From: Clostridia bacterium
GTDB lineage: Bacteria; Bacillota; Clostridia; Oscillospirales; RGIG8002
Direction: 5' to 3'
NCBI GenBank assembly: GCA_017438525.1
Contig: JAFRVI010000033.1
Span: forward strand, 1-42,600
DNA length: 42,600 bases
Under the pieces are notes generated by a model. That model was given only the letters and a program-made list of their open reading frames with translations. It had not been told where the DNA came from and made no database searches. The position numbers and the translations under genes were made by a program. Shown here piece by piece: positions 17,648-41,684 of this stretch (the stretch's first letter is position 1; each line of letters opens with the position of its first letter).

Positions 17648-17962
17648 TTATGATGAATAGTCCTCTATTCTGCGGTTCAGTTCCTCGTCGTCCGCGGCGT
17701 AAACGCCGAGTATGAGCGCAGCCCTGTCTCTTTCCGGCAGCGTGCGCGTATCGACTTCGATTACGCTGATCGGTTCGCTGACACCCGCTTTGAAGACGCC
17801 GATCACGCCTTCGTATTCGCGCAGAACGTATCCGTATTCTGACGAAATCTCCGGCGCCGACCCGTCCGGCAGGGGAGCCGTCCGCTTCGCGATTTGCGGA
17901 GCGAGCATCGCAAGAACCGCCGAAACAGCGAGGAAAGAATAAATAATTATTCGATTTTTCAT
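17648..17962 (-). CDS. Small membrane-anchored protein resembling the BofC C-terminal domain
   Basis: The 104-residue protein has one N-terminal membrane or signal segment (about 4-22), a short linker and a compact domain: GYVLREYEGVIGVFKAG, then TLPERDRAALILGVYAADDEELNRRIEDYSS. This pattern resembles the BofC C-terminal domain (bypass-of-forespore C), seen in many small clostridial proteins. In Bacillus, BofC restrains the SpoIVB signal that triggers pro-sigma-K processing. Placement directly upstream of sigK fits such a role but does not prove it. The ATG at 17962 has GGAGG 7 nt upstream. The N-terminal domain of full-length BofC is missing. Confidence 0.6.
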   Translation of the reverse strand: MKNRIIIYSFLAVSAVLAMLAPQIAKRTAPLPDGSAPEISSEYGYVLREYEGVIGVFKAGVSEPISVIEVDTRTLPERDRAALILGVYAADDEELNRRIEDYSS

Positions 17963-18042
17963 CCGACAACCTCCGGTATACAAGTTTGCGATATATGGTT
18001 GACAATGCTTTTGTATAAAGCAAGTTAGCGTTGCTATATGCC

Positions 18043-18070
18043 TTTCGTTATTCTGCGCAGAATAACGAAA
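18043..18070. repeat. Perfect 28-bp palindrome between the BofC-like gene and the PBP gene
   Basis: TTTCGTTATTCTGC (18043-18056) is followed immediately by its exact reverse complement (18057-18070). Arms of 14 bp without mismatch or spacer suggest a dimeric protein operator or a cruciform. It has no proper U-tract on either side, so it is a poor intrinsic terminator. It lies about 24 nt upstream of the -35 of the PBP promoter. Confidence 0.9.
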
Positions 18071-18093
18071 AATAGTCGTATTGAAAAAAAGTC

Positions 18094-18122
18094 TTTCAAT
18101 TGCCGCGTCATCGTGTTATAAT
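18094..18122 (+). promoter_or_regulatory. Promoter upstream of the interrupted PBP reading frame
   Basis: TTTCAA (18094-18099) and TATAAT (18117-18122) have a 17-nt spacer. ATTGAAA (18080-18086) and TTTCAAT (18094-18100) form a 7-bp inverted repeat overlapping the -35. Confidence 0.65.
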
Positions 18123-18150
18123 AATGATGTAGAAAGGGGTCTTGTGACGA

Positions 18151-18237
18151 ATGAAGCAATTCCTTAAAAACGTCTGGAATAAGATCAAGGCCTTTTGGAA
18201 AATCATCACGAAACCGTTCTCAAAACTGCGCGCTTAG
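18151..18237 (+). CDS. 28-codon basic/aromatic ORF in frame with the PBP, ended by tandem stops
   Basis: ATG at 18151, with AAGGGG about 11 nt upstream, opens a peptide beginning MKQFLKNVWNKIKAFWK and ending FSKLRA, then TAG and TGA in succession (18235-18240). It is in exactly the same frame as the penicillin-binding protein downstream. The codons between the stops and 18295 read RSYRETKVGKVIKWVGRTVG, which looks like the normal basic cytoplasmic tail of a class A PBP. So this is either the severed N-terminus of that PBP, a leader peptide, or a sequencing or assembly error. Confidence 0.6.
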   Translation: MKQFLKNVWNKIKAFWKIITKPFSKLRA

Positions 18238-18294
18238 TGACGCTCCTACCGCGAAACGAAAGTCGGCAAGGTCATCAAGTGGGTAGGCAGGACC

Positions 18295-20439
18295 GTGGGG
18301 ACGTTTCTTTTGGTACTCTTTTTTACCGGCGTATTCACCGCGCTGACCGTGCTTATTTACATCACTCAGTTCATCAACCCTGATATAGGCATTGACCTTA
18401 ACAACCTGAGTCTCGCGTATACGTCAACGATTTATTATACCGACAACGCTACCGGTCAACCCGTTGTTGAAGAGAAGCTTTATCTCAACGAAAACTGCAT
18501 CTGGGTAGACCTCGAGAACATACCCGACAACCTTGTCAACGCGTTCATAGCGATTGAAGACCAGCGTTTCTGGGAACACAGCGGCGTCGACTGGAAGCGC
18601 ACGTTCGGCGCGATACTAAACACCTTTACAGGCACCGACAGCCGCTACGGCGGATCCACTATAGACCAGCAGCTTATCAAGAATCTTACGGGCGATAACG
18701 AAGTCTCCATAAAGCGAAAAATAATGGAAATCGTCCGCGCTAATTACCTCGAGAAAAAGTACTCCAAAAAGACGATCCTGGAGGTCTATCTCAACAGGAT
18801 AAACCTCGGAAGCACTTACACCGGAGTGCAGGTCGCCGCAAACTCGTATTTTGACAAGGACGTTTCCGAACTCACGCTTGCCGAATGCGCAAGCATAGCG
18901 GGCATAACGCGCGCTCCGACGAAGTATAATCCGCAGCTTAACCTTCAGAATAACCGCGACCGCGCCGTCGTCGTTCTCGATCAGATGCTCCAGCAGGGCT
19001 ATATCAGTCCGCAGCAGCACGCCGAGGCGAAAGCGGAGATAGCGACGCTTGAGGTCCTGCCCAGAAAGAATATCGACCTGCCGGAATTCATTCAGAGTTA
19101 CTTCACCGATCAGGTCATAGAAGAAGTCACAAAGGACCTGATGGAGCAGTACGGCTATGAAAAGAGCCACGCTCAGAACATCGTCTACACCGGCGGTTTG
19201 AATATCTACTGCACCATGGATAAGGATATCCAGAACATCATGGAGCAGAAGTATTCCGAGACGGAGTTCAACAACGCGACAAATAAATACGGCGAGAATA
19301 TCGAATCCGCGATGGTGGTTATGGACTATTCCGGCGCAGTTCGGGGCATAATAGGCGGCAGAGAGAAGACCGGCAACCGCGTTCTAAACCGCGCAACGCA
19401 GTCGCTGCGTCCGCCGGGATCGTCGATCAAGCCGCTGAGCGTCTACGGTCCGGCGTTCGAGTATTCTTCCAAGGACTTCGTCTGGAATCTCGAAATCGAG
19501 GATTCTCCGATCGACGGCAAATGGCCGAAAAACCAAAGCGGCACGCCGTCCGGAGAGATGATAACCGTCCAGAAGGGTATCGCGCAGTCGCTCAATACGA
19601 TAGCGGTCAGAGTCATGAAGGATTACGTGACAACGTCCGTATCCTATGAATTCCTTAAAACGAAGCTGCATATAACCAGTTTGATCGATTCGCAGAAGCG
19701 GGACGGGAAGACGCTTTCCGATATCGCGCTTGCGCCGCTTGCGCTCGGGCAGCTTACTAACGGTATCTCCGTACTCGAGCTTTGCGCCGGCTACACGATT
19801 TTCGGAAGCGGCGGCATGCACGCCGATCCGTATTTCTACGAGAAGGTCGTCGACTCCGCCGGCAACGTCATCCTTGAGAAACGCCCGAATATCACTGAGG
19901 CAATCAGCGAGCAGACGGCGTTCATCATGAATAAACTGCTTCAGACCGTCGTCAACTCCGGCACCGGTACTCCGGCGAAATTCAAAGGGTTTGAGATCGG
20001 CGGCAAGACCGGTACTTCAAACGACGACTGCGACCGCTGGTTCGTCGGTTACACTCCGTACTATGTGGCTGCCGCCTGGACCGGATTCGATTCTCCGACC
20101 ACGGTCAAGGGTTTCCGCACCAATCCGTCAGTTACCATATGGAAGAAGGTAATGGAGGAAATCCACAAGGGGCTTCCCGCCAAGAGCTTCCCGAAGGCGC
20201 CGTCCGGCGTATACGCATCCGGAGGCGGCTGGTACAGGAAGGGCACGAAGCCGTACGTACCGCCCGAACCGGAACCCGAGGAGAATCCGGAAAGCAATTC
20301 CTCTGAGGAGGCAACCGGCGGTGAAGGATCCGTGCCGGAGGAATCGATGTCCGGAGATGTTGTCATAGAGAGCAGCTCCGGCGGAGGCGAGGATTCGAGC
20401 TCTTCGGCGACATCTGAGGGCAGCTCTAAAACGGGATAG
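18295..20439 (+). CDS. Class A penicillin-binding protein (PBP1a type), N-terminal tail interrupted
   Basis: This bifunctional peptidoglycan synthase polymerises glycan strands and cross-links stem peptides outside the membrane. The open part has 714 residues. A membrane segment at about 3-25 is followed by a GT51 domain with catalytic Glu88 in EDQRFWEH and GGSTIDQQLIKNL. The transpeptidase has Ser376-x-x-Lys379 (SSIK), Ser432-Leu-Asn434 and KTG (571-573). The C-terminal tail is rich in Ser, Glu, Pro and Gly. After the tandem stop at 18235-18240, the first possible start is GTG at 18295, which has a poor ribosome site and removes the cytoplasmic tail. All catalytic motifs are intact, so a functional product is plausible if initiation or readthrough occurs. 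Confidence 0.9.
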   Translation: MGTFLLVLFFTGVFTALTVLIYITQFINPDIGIDLNNLSLAYTSTIYYTDNATGQPVVEEKLYLNENCIWVDLENIPDNLVNAFIAIEDQRFWEHSGVDWKRTFGAILNTFTGTDSRYGGSTIDQQLIKNLTGDNEVSIKRKIMEIVRANYLEKKYSKKTILEVYLNRINLGSTYTGVQVAANSYFDKDVSELTLAECASIAGITRAPTKYNPQLNLQNNRDRAVVVLDQMLQQGYISPQQHAEAKAEIATLEVLPRKNIDLPEFIQSYFTDQVIEEVTKDLMEQYGYEKSHAQNIVYTGGLNIYCTMDKDIQNIMEQKYSETEFNNATNKYGENIESAMVVMDYSGAVRGIIGGREKTGNRVLNRATQSLRPPGSSIKPLSVYGPAFEYSSKDFVWNLEIEDSPIDGKWPKNQSGTPSGEMITVQKGIAQSLNTIAVRVMKDYVTTSVSYEFLKTKLHITSLIDSQKRDGKTLSDIALAPLALGQLTNGISVLELCAGYTIFGSGGMHADPYFYEKVVDSAGNVILEKRPNITEAISEQTAFIMNKLLQTVVNSGTGTPAKFKGFEIGGKTGTSNDDCDRWFVGYTPYYVAAAWTGFDSPTTVKGFRTNPSVTIWKKVMEEIHKGLPAKSFPKAPSGVYASGGGWYRKGTKPYVPPEPEPEENPESNSSEEATGGEGSVPEESMSGDVVIESSSGGGEDSSSSATSEGSSKTG

Positions 20440-23064: not shown

Positions 23065-24483
23065 ATGGCTTATACGCAGGAAAGGATAAGCGGGATAGTA
23101 GCCGCGCAGCGCAAATACTTCCGCGGCGGCGAAACCCTCGACGTCAAGTGGCGCATCGAGCAGCTCAAAAAGCTCAAGCAGGCCGTGATCGACCATAAAG
23201 AAGAGCTTCTTGCCGCGCTTTACGAAGACCTCGGCAGAAGCCCTGTCGAGGCGTACCTGTGCGACGTCGGCCCCGTTATCGTCGAAATCAACGAAATCAT
23301 ACGCGGAGTGAAAAAGTGGGCGAAGCCCGAAAAACATTTCAGCGGTCTTATGTGCTTCCCGAGCACGCGCACGACGGTGTATAAAATGCCTTACGGCGTT
23401 TCGCTGATAATCAGCCCGTTCAACTTCCCGATACTGCTGACGCTCGGCGTGCTCGCGGCGAGTATCGCCGGAGGCAACACCGCCGTCGTCAAGGCGAGCT
23501 CGAAGTCCGCGGCGAGCACGAAGGCGCTGCAGAAGCTTATTGCCGACACCTTCCCCGAGAACTACATCACCCTTATTGACGGCGGACACGACGTTGCGGA
23601 TATGTGCCTCGCCGAACGCTTTGACAAGATATTCTATACCGGTTCGCCCGCGGTCGCGAAGCACGTGCTTTCCGCCGCGGCGGAGAATCTCACGTCCGTC
23701 GCGCTCGAGCTCGGCGGCGAAACGGGCAACTGGTGCGTCGTGCGCAAAGACGCCGACCTGAAGGACGCCGCGCGCAAGATCGCCTTCTTCAAGCTCTGCA
23801 ACGCGGGGCAGATCTGCATTAACGTCAACCAGATCGCCGTTGCCGAGGAGGTCGCCGACGAGTTCCTCGCGGAGCTCAAAAAAGAGTTCGTCCGCCAGAT
23901 AGGCGAGAAGCCGGAGGATAATCCCGACTACCCGAAGCTCATCACGGACGCCGTCTATGACAAGTGCGTGCGGCTTACCGACGAATACGCCGGCAGAATC
24001 GTTTTCGGCGGCACGGGAAATAAAGAAACGCGCCGGTTTTCACCGACGCTTATCTACCCCGTGAAGCCCGACGAGGATATCGTGCGGCACGAGCTGTTCT
24101 GCCCGCTGCTGCCGGTCGTTCCGTTCAAGGACGCCGAGGTCGACGGGATTATGGATATAATCGCGGAGCGCGAGCATCCGCTTTCTATGTACGTTTTCAC
24201 TTCGGATAAGAAGTGGGCGAATAAGGTCATGTCGACTCAGCAGTACGGCGGCGGCTGCATCAACGAAGTGTGTATTCATATGATGGTCAAGGGCGTGCCG
24301 TTCAACGGCACCGGACATTCCGGTATGGGCGCCTACCACGGGGAGTGGGGCTTCCGCGAGTTCACGCATCCCTCGACCGTGCTGACTGGTAAAACGCACT
24401 TCAACATTCCGCTCCGCGAACACCCGTATTCGGGCAAAGAAGGGGAGAAGAAGATGAAGCTGCTCAGAAAGCTGGAGAAGTGA
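23065..24483 (+). CDS. Aldehyde dehydrogenase, ALDH3-like
   Basis: This NAD(P)-dependent oxidoreductase of 472 residues converts aldehydes to acids. The cofactor-site stretch PYGVSLIISPFNFPILL, the catalytic Glu215 in ALELGGE and nucleophile Cys251 in NAGQICI are present. The C-terminal block FNGTGHSGMGAYHGEWGFREF matches class 3 (fatty or aromatic aldehyde) enzymes. The substrate is not predictable. The ATG at 23065 follows GGGAGGGG by about 8 nt, and the frame is open further upstream without support. The stop TGA abuts the convergent bofA stop, forming TGATCA with no gap. The nearby genes give no pathway clue. Confidence 0.93.
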   Translation: MAYTQERISGIVAAQRKYFRGGETLDVKWRIEQLKKLKQAVIDHKEELLAALYEDLGRSPVEAYLCDVGPVIVEINEIIRGVKKWAKPEKHFSGLMCFPSTRTTVYKMPYGVSLIISPFNFPILLTLGVLAASIAGGNTAVVKASSKSAASTKALQKLIADTFPENYITLIDGGHDVADMCLAERFDKIFYTGSPAVAKHVLSAAAENLTSVALELGGETGNWCVVRKDADLKDAARKIAFFKLCNAGQICINVNQIAVAEEVADEFLAELKKEFVRQIGEKPEDNPDYPKLITDAVYDKCVRLTDEYAGRIVFGGTGNKETRRFSPTLIYPVKPDEDIVRHELFCPLLPVVPFKDAEVDGIMDIIAEREHPLSMYVFTSDKKWANKVMSTQQYGGGCINEVCIHMMVKGVPFNGTGHSGMGAYHGEWGFREFTHPSTVLTGKTHFNIPLREHPYSGKEGEKKMKLLRKLEK

Positions 24484-24738
24484 TCACAGCAGTATTTCCG
24501 CCGCGACGACCGCGAATGTACCCGGCGCACCGAGCAGGAAGGACGCCGAAACGCTTATCGCATTGAGTCCGACTGAAATGCCGGTCAGCCCCGCCGCGAG
24601 ATTAAACGCGCAGAGCAGGGAAAGACCTCCGAGCCCTCCCGCGAAGAAGCGCCGCTTCTTCGAGCCGCCCGCGGCGGTGAGAAAAAACGACAGCGCAAAC
24701 AGCGCCGAAGCACCAACGACAGTCCAAAACGTATTCAT
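24484..24738 (-). CDS. bofA: Pro-sigma-K processing inhibitor BofA
   Basis: This small membrane protein of 84 residues has two hydrophobic stretches. In Bacillus BofA holds the SpoIVFB protease inactive until a forespore signal arrives, so it controls SigK activation. The family signature is the C-terminal part LAAGLTGISVGLNAISVSASFLLGAPG, ending in a hydrophobic tail. AAAGGA lies about 8 nt upstream of the ATG. It follows yaaL by 18 nt, as in Bacillus, where the order is recR-yaaL-bofA. No recR is present here. Its target sigK lies about 7 kb away in this window. Confidence 0.88.
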   Translation of the reverse strand: MNTFWTVVGASALFALSFFLTAAGGSKKRRFFAGGLGGLSLLCAFNLAAGLTGISVGLNAISVSASFLLGAPGTFAVVAAEILL

Positions 24739-24756
24739 AAATATGTCCTTTCCGAT

Positions 24757-24954
24757 TCAGCTCGCCTTGCGGCGCGCCTTTTCCATCAGAGCGCCGTATT
24801 TGCTTTCCGCGGCACAGATAAGGAAGATTATCTCATCCATTCTGTCCGGGTCGTTTTCGTAGTCGAAACGGCAATACAGCCGCGAGAGCTCGGTTTTGGC
24901 TTCCTCAATCTGTTCGAAGAGCGTCAGCTCGTTTTCCGCCGCGTTTGTCAGCAT
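24757..24954 (-). CDS. yaaL: YaaL-family protein (DUF2508)
   Basis: This 65-residue, helical, charged protein of unknown function reads EQIEEAKTELSRLYCRFDYENDPDRMDEIIFLICAAESKYGALMEKAR. It is recognised from the DUF2508 pattern and its conserved place before bofA. The ATG at 24954 has AGGGTGG 5 nt upstream. An alternative TTG at 25011 would add 19 residues. It has an excellent AAAGGAGG (25023-25030), but at a long spacing of about 11 nt, so the longer form cannot be excluded. Confidence 0.8.
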   Translation of the reverse strand: MLTNAAENELTLFEQIEEAKTELSRLYCRFDYENDPDRMDEIIFLICAAESKYGALMEKARRKAS

Positions 24955-25052
24955 AGTTACCACCCTTTTTGTAAAAGATATTGAGCGCGCATTGAAAATA
25001 TACCCGCGCAAAGATATTTTTGCCTCCTTTGGTGAAACTTATGCCGACGCGG

Positions 25053-25081
25053 TTGACATACGGTATTTGATTTGCTAAAAT
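25053..25081 (+). promoter_or_regulatory. sigma-A promoter of the DUF4364 gene
   Basis: TTGACA (25053-25058) and TAAAAT (25076-25081) have a 17-nt spacer. The expected transcript start (about 25088) leaves only about 10 nt before the ATG at 25098. Confidence 0.85.
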
Positions 25082-25097
25082 ATGTTTGGTGATAAAT

Positions 25098-25613
25098 ATG
25101 AGAGTTGAACCCGGTGGACTCAGCAATATCAACGAAGTGAAAATATTGATTTGCCGCGTCCTGAATGAACTTGACAACCCGATAGCTATGTCGGATCTTA
25201 CCGACGGAATGCTCGCGGACGGCTACGTCAATTACTTTGATTACGCGATAGCCATAAACGATCTGTGTGAGAACGGTCATGTCCGCAAGGAGACCGAGGA
25301 CGGCAGGATAGTTTTTTATTTAACCGAAGACGGCAAAAACGCCGACCGTCTCCTCGGAGCGAATCTTCCGCTTGCCGTATGCGAAAAAGTATACGCCGCC
25401 GTGCTTGCCGCGAGAAGCGGCGGCAGGGCGATCTGCACGATAGAGCCGCACGAGCTGGGCTGCTTTGTACGTATGCGTTTCATTCTCGGGGGCAGGGAGC
25501 TCTTCAACGTCAAGCTTGAGGCGGGCGACGAGATGACCGCCGAGGATATGAAGCGCAACTTCCTGAAGAATCCTCACGACGTTTATATTTCTCTCGTCAA
25601 GCTGATAAAATGA
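25098..25613 (+). CDS. DUF4364 family protein, predicted winged-helix domain
   Basis: This 171-residue protein of unknown function occurs in many Clostridia. Residues about 10-75 read like a winged helix (MSDLTDGMLADGYVNYFDYAIAINDL, then GHVRKETEDGRIVFYLTEDGK). The second half is an alpha/beta domain (CFVRMRFILGGRELFNVKLEAGD). It is probably a transcriptional regulator (inference). GTG at 25089 and TTG at 25086 are in frame, but GGTGA lies 5 nt before the ATG at 25098. The 5' leader would be very short given the promoter position. Its stop abuts the convergent DUF4363 stop. Confidence 0.82.
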   Translation: MRVEPGGLSNINEVKILICRVLNELDNPIAMSDLTDGMLADGYVNYFDYAIAINDLCENGHVRKETEDGRIVFYLTEDGKNADRLLGANLPLAVCEKVYAAVLAARSGGRAICTIEPHELGCFVRMRFILGGRELFNVKLEAGDEMTAEDMKRNFLKNPHDVYISLVKLIK

Positions 25614-25997
25614 TCAGAGTATATTTCGCAGCAGCGGCGTTTCGCTTTCGGTGATATGCGCCAGCATCGCTTTCAGCATACGCAGTTCGCCTATAATACC
25701 GCTTTTGTCCCGGCATTGAGCAAATCCTTTCATTTGCTCGATGCCGATTTTTATGTCGTGCATTTCCTCATGCCGCACGAAGAGCAGATAATACGGCTCG
25801 CGATCGTCCCAGAAGTCGCCGAATTCATCGAGCGTCTGCAGACAAGCGGCGTAATCCTCGCTCATCGCCGCCTTATCGACTTTTTCAATAAAAACGTCGG
25901 CGTCCGCCTCGGTGCCGCGTAGGAAAAAGAGGCAGGCGAGGGATGAGCTTATTATAAACGCCAGCAGTATAGGAACCGCGATCACAATACGCTTCAT
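25614..25997 (-). CDS. DUF4363 family protein, membrane-anchored
   Basis: This 127-residue protein has one N-terminal membrane segment (about 4-26). A helical extracytoplasmic part follows, with FGDFWDDREPYYLLFVRHEEMHDIKIGIEQM, typical of DUF4363. Its function is unknown. The ATG overlaps the stop of the DUF421 gene by 4 nt and an AAGGGA site lies inside that gene, so the two are translated together. The DUF421-DUF4363 pairing is familiar in spore-forming Clostridia. Confidence 0.85.
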   Translation of the reverse strand: MKRIVIAVPILLAFIISSSLACLFFLRGTEADADVFIEKVDKAAMSEDYAACLQTLDEFGDFWDDREPYYLLFVRHEEMHDIKIGIEQMKGFAQCRDKSGIIGELRMLKAMLAHITESETPLLRNIL

Positions 25998-26638
25998 TTC
26001 GCATCCCTTCCGACTATCTCAAATTCTCCGCCTCCGAGGCAGAAGCAGTAAAACACGTCGCGGAGCGAGAAGTTTTCCGCGTTAAGCGCGGCAGTCAGTT
26101 CGTTTTTGTCAACTCCGGCCGCTTTGAGTTCGTTTTCATCAATTTTCCCGTCGCTGACGACCATTCTCGGCAGTGTTTTCGGAGGGGGAGTCGACGGATC
26201 CGCGGGGATAACGCTGATCTTTCCGTCCGTTTCCACTATCGCGAAAGCGACGTCTGCGAATGAGGCGCAGCCGCAGTTGCGTACCTCTCCGAGCAGGTCG
26301 TCGAGAGTGAAACGCAGACGAAGCAGATTATTCTGTACGACTGTACCGTTATCGATAACGACTATCGGCGAGCCGAGCGCGCGGCGTCGGAATCCCGCTG
26401 AACGCAGACTTATCGCCGAAACGGCAAGCTCGCAAATAACGAGCGTTATAAGCGGTATCAGCCCCTGCAAAAGCGGTATACCGGTGTTCGTTATCGGTAT
26501 TGCGGCGAGGTCGGAAATAATTATCGTGATTATCAGCTCGCCCGGCTGAAGATCTCCGAGCTGTCGCTTGCCCATAAGCCGCATCGCGAGCATCAGCAGG
26601 GCGTATATAGTTATCGTGCGTATAAAAGAAACGAGCAT
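25994..26638 (-). CDS. DUF421 family membrane protein (YetF-like)
   Basis: This 214-residue protein has three N-terminal membrane segments (IRTITIYALLMLAMRLMGKRQLGDLQPGELIITIIISDLAAIP and beyond). A cytoplasmic alpha/beta domain follows with PIVVIDNG, LRFTLDDLLGEVRNCG and FAIVETDGKISVIP, all hallmarks of DUF421/YetF. In Bacillus YetF-type proteins are linked to spore germination or envelope, but no reaction is known. The ATG at 26638 has GGGAGG 7 nt upstream. The open frame beyond it (to 26878) lies over the divergent yunB gene and is not supported. Confidence 0.9.
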   Translation of the reverse strand: MLVSFIRTITIYALLMLAMRLMGKRQLGDLQPGELIITIIISDLAAIPITNTGIPLLQGLIPLITLVICELAVSAISLRSAGFRRRALGSPIVVIDNGTVVQNNLLRLRFTLDDLLGEVRNCGCASFADVAFAIVETDGKISVIPADPSTPPPKTLPRMVVSDGKIDENELKAAGVDKNELTAALNAENFSLRDVFYCFCLGGGEFEIVGRDAK

Positions 26639-26736
26639 TTTTCCGCCTCCCGTGCGTATTTTTCCCTCATATACGCTTCGATTATTCGGAAACAAGCCGC
26701 TTTTCGCTTCATAAAATGAGGCGAGGGGGCGAGAAT

Positions 26737-27372
26737 ATGAAGAAACGCCGCAGGCGCATAAGGATAGTGTTGTATGTCGCGCTGACCGCCGCCGCGCTGA
26801 TGTTTCTCCGCGCGCGGCTGCGCCCGTATATTGCGTCGCTTGCAGAGATGGAGGGCAAGCGGCTCGGCGCCGATGCAATAACCAGAGGCGTCGTTCGTGT
26901 GTTTGCAGAGGATAAACCGGCGTACAGCGATGTGGTCACAGTGACTTACGCCGACGGCAAGGCAGTGTCGCTCCACGCGGACGCGGCGAAGCAGAACGCG
27001 CTTCGGCTTGCGGTCGGAGACGCTGTCGCGGACGAACTCGGCGAAAATCCGGCGTCAAGCGTGAAGGTGTCGCTCGGCAGTCTCGTGGGCGAGCTTTTCG
27101 CGGGCAGGGGAGTTTCGATGAAAGTAATACTCGATTCCGTCGGCACGGTCGACGTCGACTTTGCGAGTGAATTCGTTTCCGCCGGGATTAACCAGACACT
27201 CCACCGCATCACCATGAAGGTCGTCGTCAGCTTCACGATTCTCGCGGCGACTTATCGCGTCGATACGCAATCGACGTGTGCATTCAATCTCGCGGAAACC
27301 GTCATCGTCGGAGCAGTTCCGGAGAATTATACGGATATCGGACCGATATCCGAAGGCGAATACGGTAAATAA
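26737..27372 (+). CDS. yunB: Sporulation protein YunB
   Basis: YunB is a mother-cell sporulation protein with one N-terminal membrane anchor and a conserved C-terminal domain, required in Bacillus for normal spore formation. The 211 residues show a basic start and membrane segment (about 8-25), then VKVSLGSLVGELFAGRG. The signature SAGINQTLHRITMKVVV and FNLAETVIVGAVPENY follow. GAGGGGG lies 7 nt before the ATG at 26737. ATG 26716 is in frame but lacks a site. No clear sigma-E promoter was found. Confidence 0.9.
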   Translation: MKKRRRRIRIVLYVALTAAALMFLRARLRPYIASLAEMEGKRLGADAITRGVVRVFAEDKPAYSDVVTVTYADGKAVSLHADAAKQNALRLAVGDAVADELGENPASSVKVSLGSLVGELFAGRGVSMKVILDSVGTVDVDFASEFVSAGINQTLHRITMKVVVSFTILAATYRVDTQSTCAFNLAETVIVGAVPENYTDIGPISEGEYGK

Positions 27373-39158: not shown

Positions 39159-41684
39159 ATGAGTGTAAAGAAAAGTGCTATGAGAGCATTGTCAATCGTT
39201 CTATGCCTGGCTATGTTTGCCGGAATCGGATTCACACGCTTCACGATGAGCGCTTCCGCAGATGCGCTTGTCAGGGTCGTTAACGGCAAGGCGCTCATGT
39301 CGTCTTCTGTTACATTCATTCAAGCATATATCGACTGCGAAAAAGACGTATCAACGGAGGTGAGTTTTTTCGCGGCGACCGGACTTGACGTTTACGGTTT
39401 CTCTTCCTACTACGGCGGAGACGTAGACAACGTAAAGTCCGATCCTTCCGAAACGCATCTGACCGGCACCGACGGAGATTATTACGTTACATGGACGAAT
39501 GACCGCTCTTTGAATCCTTATCAGGCGTTTGAAGCTGATGTTTCGGGTATCGTTGGCAACATCATCATAGGATATGACGGCAAACTCCACGATACGGATA
39601 CCAATGGTTCGATAATACTCCAAGTATGGAGCCCTGCCGAGAATAAGTATATTAAAATGGATGAATGCGGAGTCGTGAGCGGCACGGGTGTCCCTGCCGG
39701 CTCGGTATCGGTATGTGCGGAAATAAACGCGGCTGAGTATTCTGAGAACGGCATCGTCAGGTACAGAGTCGTTCTGCCGACCGACGCAGCTTATAAGTGG
39801 ATTTATACACGTCACGCAACAGTGGGGCAAGTAGACGAAAGCACGCAGTACGGCACTACAAAAACGCGGACTAAGCCCGGCAACGCTTCCTTGAATTATA
39901 AAGGCGAAGTTGTTCCCGGAATGTGCTTCTGCGTGAAGACGGAGACCGACGCCGGATACGGATATTCGATGATATTCCCGTTCAGCTCTGAAAACACCGC
40001 GCAGTCTCAGCTTGCTCACTTCAACGTTAACTTTAACGGCGACGCCTGCACGACGCGCAACATGAGCTGGGTTTCCAAAAACGACCTCGCTGCCGCTGTG
40101 GTTCAGGTCGTGCCTTACGGCAAGCTCGACCCCGATTTCACCAATGCGAGAACCTATACCGGCAAAAAAGACAGGATAAAGAACGCCGAGAAACCCTACG
40201 GCTTCTACGTCACCGTCGACGACCTCGAGCCCGATACTGAATACTGGTACCGTTACGGCGACGGGAATAGTGTTTGGTCTTCACCGTGCTATTTGCGTAC
40301 CGATGACGGCGACGCGCACTTTTCGTTCATGATGAGCGGAGATCCGCAGTCTTACACCGACAGCACCGATGAAGCGCAGATCGAAAAGGTGTTCGGACAG
40401 TACAGGCAGGTCGGTTATTCTTTTAATGAAGCGAAACGCACCACCGGCGCGGAGTTTATGGTCGTGTGCGGTGACGAAAGCGACCACGGCAACTATGAGT
40501 CTTGCTGGGATTGGTACTATGACAAAAACCAGACGTTCTACCGATCTTCGACGCTTGCGCCGACGATGGGCAACCATGACAGCTGGGGGTGGGATATGTG
40601 GCTTGCGAATCACTTCCTTTCGGACCCCGATACCGGCGAACGGGGAAGTTACTGTTCGTTTGACTACGGCAACGCTCACTTCATTATCCTTAACGGCAAT
40701 ATAGCCGAGGCAAATAACAGAAGGGCGATGCGCGATAAGGAATACGCGTGGCTCATAAGAGACCTTGAAGAGCACAAGGACGCTGACTTCAAATTTATAA
40801 TCGAGCACCAGGGTATGTATTCGTATCCGGTGCATACAAACGAGGCGGAAACTGTCGAAATCCGTTCTATCCTCGTGCCGATAATAGACGAATACGGAGT
40901 AGACTTCATGATGCAGGGGCACGATCACATCTGGCTCCGCACGAGCTCTATGGAAGGCGGCAGAAATGTTTCCCCCGGCAACACGACGACGATAACCGAT
41001 ATCGTCACCGGAGATACCTACATCGTGGATCCGCAGGGAACGACCTACTGCAACGGCGGCTCGCTGACGGGCAGTAAGTATCACAATCCGAACCCCGCGA
41101 ACTTTCTGACGCTTATTTCCGTTGCCTGTGCCGCTCAGCCCAATATGCCGACTTATAACACCTTTGAGATCGACGGGGGCAAGCTGAAGTTCAAGGGCTG
41201 GGCTTTCAACAAGTCGACAGGCGTGATTTCGAGGATCGGCCAGTATTCGCATTACGGCAATGAAACAGATGGCTACAGCATAGTCAAGACTTCCTACTAC
41301 ACTAAGATCAATAACCGCATAAACGCGCTTCCCGAAACGCTGACGCTTGAGGACAGGGAAGAGGTCCTCGCGCTCAAAAAGATGTGCGACGCCGAGAGCG
41401 AAACGTTCCTTGACGCTTACGTTCCGGACGCGGGAAAACTCGCGGCAGCTTATGAAACCGTCGAGCAGCTTTATCAGGATTCGATAATCAAAGGAGACCT
41501 TGACGGAGACGGCGAAGTGACCGTAGCGGACGCGCTTGCCGCGCTTCGTGTTGCCGTTGGTCTTGCGGATCAGCCCGAAGGCGACGCGCTTATCGTTGCC
41601 GACGTCGACTGCGACGGTGAAGTGACTGTTTCCGACGCGCTTCACATTCTCCGTTTTGTCGCAAAACTCGTTGACGAGCTGTAA
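39159..41684 (+). CDS. Secreted metallophosphoesterase with C-terminal dockerin
   Basis: This 841-residue exported protein starts with a signal peptide (about 1-32, AMRALSIVLCLAMFAGIGF, SASA). An uncharacterised N-terminal domain (about 35-280) and a purple-acid-phosphatase-like Fn3 domain (near 300-390, ending DDLEPDTEYWYRYGDG) follow. The calcineurin-type catalytic domain has GDPQ (around 394), VVCGDESDH, MGNHD (around 470), EHQGMYS and QGHDHIW (around 586). The last ~60 residues form a type I dockerin: two calcium loops, DLDGDGEVTVADALAALR and DVDCDGEVTVSDALHILR. Dockerins dock to cohesins, so it probably joins an extracellular complex. AAAGGAG precedes the ATG at 39159. No cohesin gene is in the window. 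Confidence 0.92.
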   Translation: MSVKKSAMRALSIVLCLAMFAGIGFTRFTMSASADALVRVVNGKALMSSSVTFIQAYIDCEKDVSTEVSFFAATGLDVYGFSSYYGGDVDNVKSDPSETHLTGTDGDYYVTWTNDRSLNPYQAFEADVSGIVGNIIIGYDGKLHDTDTNGSIILQVWSPAENKYIKMDECGVVSGTGVPAGSVSVCAEINAAEYSENGIVRYRVVLPTDAAYKWIYTRHATVGQVDESTQYGTTKTRTKPGNASLNYKGEVVPGMCFCVKTETDAGYGYSMIFPFSSENTAQSQLAHFNVNFNGDACTTRNMSWVSKNDLAAAVVQVVPYGKLDPDFTNARTYTGKKDRIKNAEKPYGFYVTVDDLEPDTEYWYRYGDGNSVWSSPCYLRTDDGDAHFSFMMSGDPQSYTDSTDEAQIEKVFGQYRQVGYSFNEAKRTTGAEFMVVCGDESDHGNYESCWDWYYDKNQTFYRSSTLAPTMGNHDSWGWDMWLANHFLSDPDTGERGSYCSFDYGNAHFIILNGNIAEANNRRAMRDKEYAWLIRDLEEHKDADFKFIIEHQGMYSYPVHTNEAETVEIRSILVPIIDEYGVDFMMQGHDHIWLRTSSMEGGRNVSPGNTTTITDIVTGDTYIVDPQGTTYCNGGSLTGSKYHNPNPANFLTLISVACAAQPNMPTYNTFEIDGGKLKFKGWAFNKSTGVISRIGQYSHYGNETDGYSIVKTSYYTKINNRINALPETLTLEDREEVLALKKMCDAESETFLDAYVPDAGKLAAAYETVEQLYQDSIIKGDLDGDGEVTVADALAALRVAVGLADQPEGDALIVADVDCDGEVTVSDALHILRFVAKLVDEL

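Follow-up and report, generated by a model that had tools for sequence, protein, structure and literature searches.

A class A PBP gene of a Clostridia bacterium split by two consecutive stop codons in its N-terminal tail

N-terminal tails of described class A PBPs

Two described proteins are close to the case reported here. In Clostridioides difficile PBP1, likewise a class A PBP from a spore-forming clostridium, deletion of the N-terminal tail of 46 residues showed that neither growth nor division requires it (PMC12539705). In Escherichia coli PBP1b, a natural additional form is started 46 codons downstream; the long tail serves recruitment to the division site, and the short form is made without most of this tail (PMC13423804). 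A search of the literature on PBP1b internal starts and on tandem stops in MAGs found nothing on point.

The gene under study lies in a window of 42,600 nucleotides, the whole stretch of DNA that was analysed, which is identical with its source contig and belongs to a 1.85 Mb genome (90 contigs, 97% complete). It differs from the C. difficile case in that the deletion there was engineered and placed under an inducible promoter (PMC12539705), whereas here stop codons cut the tail and expression of the enzyme body is putative. The short (gamma) isoform of PBP1b (PMC13423804) offers another parallel, with its internal start 46 codons into the tail and the candidate start here 48 codons in. However, E. 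coli keeps the long form, which is impossible here without readthrough, and the gamma isoform retains a basic stretch, whereas none would precede the anchor here with GTG as the candidate start. Like a nonsense allele or pseudogene, the gene carries premature stops missing from relatives; unlike one, it has no other lesion, the changes in its body are mostly silent, and it is the sole copy.

The simplest reading of the locus is that a recent pair of nonsense changes removed the tail of a single-copy class A PBP. Should the stops be real, they would test in nature whether a clostridium can live with a tail-less sole class A PBP, or without the enzyme altogether, two questions of current interest given the studies of PBP1 in C. 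difficile and of PBP1b isoforms in E. coli. An error would make this no more than a remark on one assembly.

The split reading frame, its congeners and the enzyme body

The frame opened by ATG 18151 reads MKQFLKNVWNKIKAFWKIITKPFSKLRA over 18151-18234, runs into TAG (18235-18237) and TGA (18238-18240) after 28 codons, and is then open in the same frame as a class A PBP to the stop codon at 20437-20439 (Table 1). The sequence-only reading had reported a PBP frame broken by consecutive TAG and TGA, with a 28-codon ORF in the same frame, and this is confirmed from the sequence.

Table 1 Features in and upstream of the class A PBP gene (positions in the window).
Feature	Position	Strand	Basis
Perfect 28-base palindrome 5' of the PBP promoter	18043..18070	.	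Related core copies in the genus
Probable promoter: TTTCAA and a TG-preceded TATAAT, with a 17-base spacer	18094..18122	+	Aligned in relatives; strict scan negative
Ribosome site for ATG 18151	18132..18140	+	Duplex -7.6 kcal/mol, same in G002
Initial segment of the ancestral cytoplasmic tail, an open frame of 28 codons closed by TAG TGA	18151..18240	+	Frame reading, relatives
The stop codon pair; congeners have Trp-Trp (three) or Lys-Trp (one) here	18235..18240	+	Congener alignment
Remainder of the ancestral basic tail; 15/18 residues identical to G002	18241..18294	+	Relatives
Possible ribosome site for GTG 18295	18280..18288	+	Duplex -6.4 kcal/mol, identical in G002
Body of the class A PBP (membrane anchor plus transglycosylase and transpeptidase domains), free of further stops	18295..20439	+	Frame, domains

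We compared the window genome (G000) with four distinct congeners, G001 (L032), G002 (L004; the nearest), G003 (L033) and RGIG10334 (L034); those close relatives that were located in a named collection are rumen MAGs labelled Clostridia bacterium. The PBP frame was open throughout in all four, with an ATG 44 or 48 codons upstream of the GTG position in each. The open frames were 765 to 768 codons long in G001-G003, compared with 732 in the window genome. Because the codons upstream of GTG 18295 are coding in four distinct congeners, the split frame is more than chance, and the codons flanking the stops do belong to the PBP tail, as had been proposed from the letters. The open frame in all four also indicates that the stops are lineage-specific and not a conserved leader peptide. 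Judged from the alignment, they are lineage-specific nonsense changes (or an error) in a formerly 48-codon tail, particular to this genome. The gene thus carries an inactivating change absent from its relatives, as a pseudogene would, and the earlier suggestion of recent damage or error gains support. The arrangement named as counter-evidence, relatives whose PBP starts at the GTG with unrelated sequence upstream, was not found in the four congeners. In a wider set, 31 homologue rows were read and one was lost to a contig end; all 30 informative rows (29 without a duplicate contig, L022/L035) had an open stretch of at least 13 codons before the anchor, mostly basic, and start-like codons adjoined the membrane anchor in some of them.

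The gene is single-copy. PF00912 matched once in the window genome and once in each of three other genus genomes, and a search of viral contigs for a further copy of the PBP gene gave none. The window genome also has two SEDS genes without stops, a Spo0A gene and a dcw-like cluster including a PASTA-bearing class B PBP. C. difficile has a similar synthase set, in which the class A PBP (PBP1) is described as the core division synthase that drives vegetative division (PMC10693644). Given this resemblance, the sole class A PBP gene may, by analogy, be important in this lineage. Counting against such importance, when the PBP was used as the query against 58 relatives, four gave weak matches only (best E between about 1e-6 and 1e-13), and one of these four is 97% complete.

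The 714 residues from GTG 18295 matched PF00912 with 197 bits (cut-off 27) and PF00905 with 79 bits (cut-off 22). The protein therefore has what defines a class A PBP, namely a GT51 transglycosylase domain, a transpeptidase domain and a membrane anchor before the catalytic domains; hydropathy reached up to 2.4 over 19 residues directly after GTG 18295. The body contains no further stops or frameshifts, and the GT and TP motifs are present. Window-only substitutions were counted at sites where all four relatives agree. In codons 49-690, 7 changed the amino acid and 37 were silent; the corresponding counts were 1 and 43 for G002, and a similar 9 and 42 for G001. The mostly silent changes indicate that constraint on the body held until recently at least. 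The excess over G002 in amino-acid changes (7 against 1, two-sided P 0.07) is a hint of relaxed constraint. Codons 31-48 had two changing and no silent window-only changes; an early impression that amino-acid changes cluster there was dropped, as it rests on very few events. One extra codon, absent from all four relatives, was found in the transpeptidase region. It lies at 19450-19490, after the SxxK region, where EYSSKDF replaces the EYSKD of relatives in a stretch that is otherwise constant.

Candidate starts and the background of stop codons

The best predicted duplex between the region of GTG 18295 and the 16S tail was -6.4 kcal/mol with a spacing of 6. The ribosome site at this codon had been called weak; this does not hold, since the start-region ATG of 70 of 122 genes had a duplex of -6.4 kcal/mol or stronger, and the site is thus ordinary for starts in this genome. 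Among internal start-like codons, 134 of 1924 (the strongest 7%) have a duplex at least as strong. The same sequence is present in G002, so that an internal start at GTG 18295 could predate the stops. The four congeners have GTG, GTG, GTT and GCG at this position, and the two without a start codon indicate that GTG 18295 is not a conserved or old start. A protein started here would be without a basic residue ahead of the anchor.

For the 28-codon ORF, a ribosome site and a promoter had been claimed. The ribosome site was borne out (-7.6 kcal/mol). The promoter was missed by a strict scan of 17900-18420, although its TATAAT (18117-18122), with TG one base upstream, aligns in relatives. An extra in-frame TGA (18145-18147) lies immediately 5' of ATG 18151; in G002 the codon there is a sense codon. 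This TGA would close a start at TTG 18142 as well, but ATG 18151 is the likelier start.

To place the stop pair against the rest of the genome, 158 gene pairs (49,394 codons), drawn from 299 kb of the window genome (16%) and 1.45 Mb of G002, were compared. In-frame stops were seen on the window-genome side of six pairs, and that of the PBP alone was inside a gene. The others were upstream of a likely real start (three), near a C-terminal end (one), and in an ORF running antisense to the gene for DNA polymerase III alpha (one). In the reverse direction, 6 of 150 had stops in G002; judged by listed position, these seem to reflect start or end effects or antisense frames. We therefore rejected general decay of the assembly, or frequent stop errors in it, as the PBP alone was internally stopped among the 158 pairs. 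A looser count (19/215 and 33/219 stretches with stops) was discarded because most looked like antisense shadow frames, and seemingly broken genes at 24479-27191 were antisense or overextended frames. A cluster of changes at the stops, as bad reads would leave, was also rejected: window-only differences showed no local excess, with at most 4 per 39 bases compared with 4 to 7 in relatives. Elsewhere in the window, 39744-41482 is 79% identical to G002, compared with 91-95% across most of the window, and appears to be a fast-changing gene.

Genes with aligned ends (n = 86; 177 ORFs entered) were terminated by TAA in 44 cases, TGA in 28 and TAG in 14. No stop anticodon was found among the 37 tRNAs passing the cut-off (38 hits), a set that is incomplete, with some ordinary tRNAs missing. 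Neither a decoding tRNA in this incomplete set nor general sense use of a stop codon was thus found, which makes recoding unlikely and agrees with the earlier statement that TAG and TGA are not generally recoded here.

Explanations of the stop pair and the upstream palindrome

We tentatively favor a recent loss of a dispensable tail, with the tail-less class A PBP body made from GTG 18295. Two substitutions in adjacent codons would recently have severed the N-terminal cytoplasmic tail of the only class A PBP gene. With the promoter and first ribosome site kept, 28 tail codons would be translated before ribosomes stop, and the PBP body would come from initiation or re-initiation at GTG 18295, 54 bases downstream, at a reduced or altered level. 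The product would be a tail-less enzyme with its membrane anchor already at the first residues. In favor are the open frames of all four congeners, the single copy, the intact body with its mostly silent changes, the ribosome site of the GTG, already present in G002, the adjacency of the two stops, and the precedents of C. difficile PBP1 and the short form of E. coli PBP1b. We infer a genuine sequence, use of GTG 18295 as a start, and a tail-less enzyme that is correctly oriented in the membrane and functional. Use of the GTG is weighed down by the lack of a start codon in two of the four relatives and by the equally good sites at internal codons. The missing basic residues before the anchor of the tail-less form, unlike all 30 informative homologue rows, also count against this explanation, as do the extra codon and the seven window-only amino-acid changes compared with one in G002.

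The main rival to a recent tail-removing nonsense pair is an error in the sequence or its assembly, or, this being a metagenome-type assembly, a base call from a minority strain, with the frame open in the real population. It would fit a sole copy of a possibly important gene with an intact body and open frames in the congeners. However, nonsense substitution errors are uncommon in this assembly, with one internal stop in the 158 gene pairs, and window-only differences are not clustered at the stops. Sequence errors are more usually indels, whereas both changes are substitutions; we regard an error as somewhat unlikely. A true null allele, with a dead gene in this strain and a wall built by the two SEDS synthases and their class B PBPs, appears less probable still. 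The two SEDS genes without stops, the weak matches in four of 58 relatives, the window-only codon insertion and the slightly higher number of amino-acid changes than in G002 all point toward it, and class A PBPs are reported as dispensable in several Bacillota (PMC12539705). Against it stand the absence of another lesion across 714 codons, the strong excess of silent changes, and the role of PBP1 in vegetative division of C. difficile with its similar synthases (PMC10693644). The position of the second stop also bears on this point. In the G002 PBP gene, a stop can arise through 288 single substitutions; the tail accounts for 24 of these, the two Trp codons for 4. An independent second stop would fall in the adjoining codon in about 2 in 22 cases if only the tail were free to change, compared with about 2 in 286 with no such restriction to the tail. 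The adjacent stops therefore weight the odds about tenfold toward a live body rather than a dead gene, a ratio that is uninformative if both changes are one event or errors.

In a two-cistron arrangement, the 28-residue basic tail peptide would be made separately, the tail-less synthase would be made only via termination and re-initiation, and the loss of the tail, together with that of any tail-based septum targeting, would be fixed in a wild population; this we consider very unlikely. A conserved leader peptide controlling PBP expression, one of the options raised by the sequence-only reading, would suit a frame of 28 codons that has a ribosome site of its own and a promoter-like region, but none of the four congeners has the split, the RNA of 18129-18330 folded no better than shuffles (z 0.09), and no terminator-like site was found. 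This option is highly improbable. Regulated readthrough, or recoding, of TAG TGA to give full-length PBP is scarcely credible: the tail after the stops is still like that of relatives, matching G002 at 15 of 18 residues, but two different stops stand in tandem, both are ordinary terminators ending 14 (TAG) and 28 (TGA) of the 86 aligned genes, and no stop-reading tRNA was among the 37 of the incomplete set.

Upstream of this region, the palindrome at 18043-18070 sits between the PBP gene and a divergent small gene. Two of three other genus genomes carry looser copies of its core (up to 3 mismatches) ahead of their PBP gene, and the core is rare elsewhere in the three.
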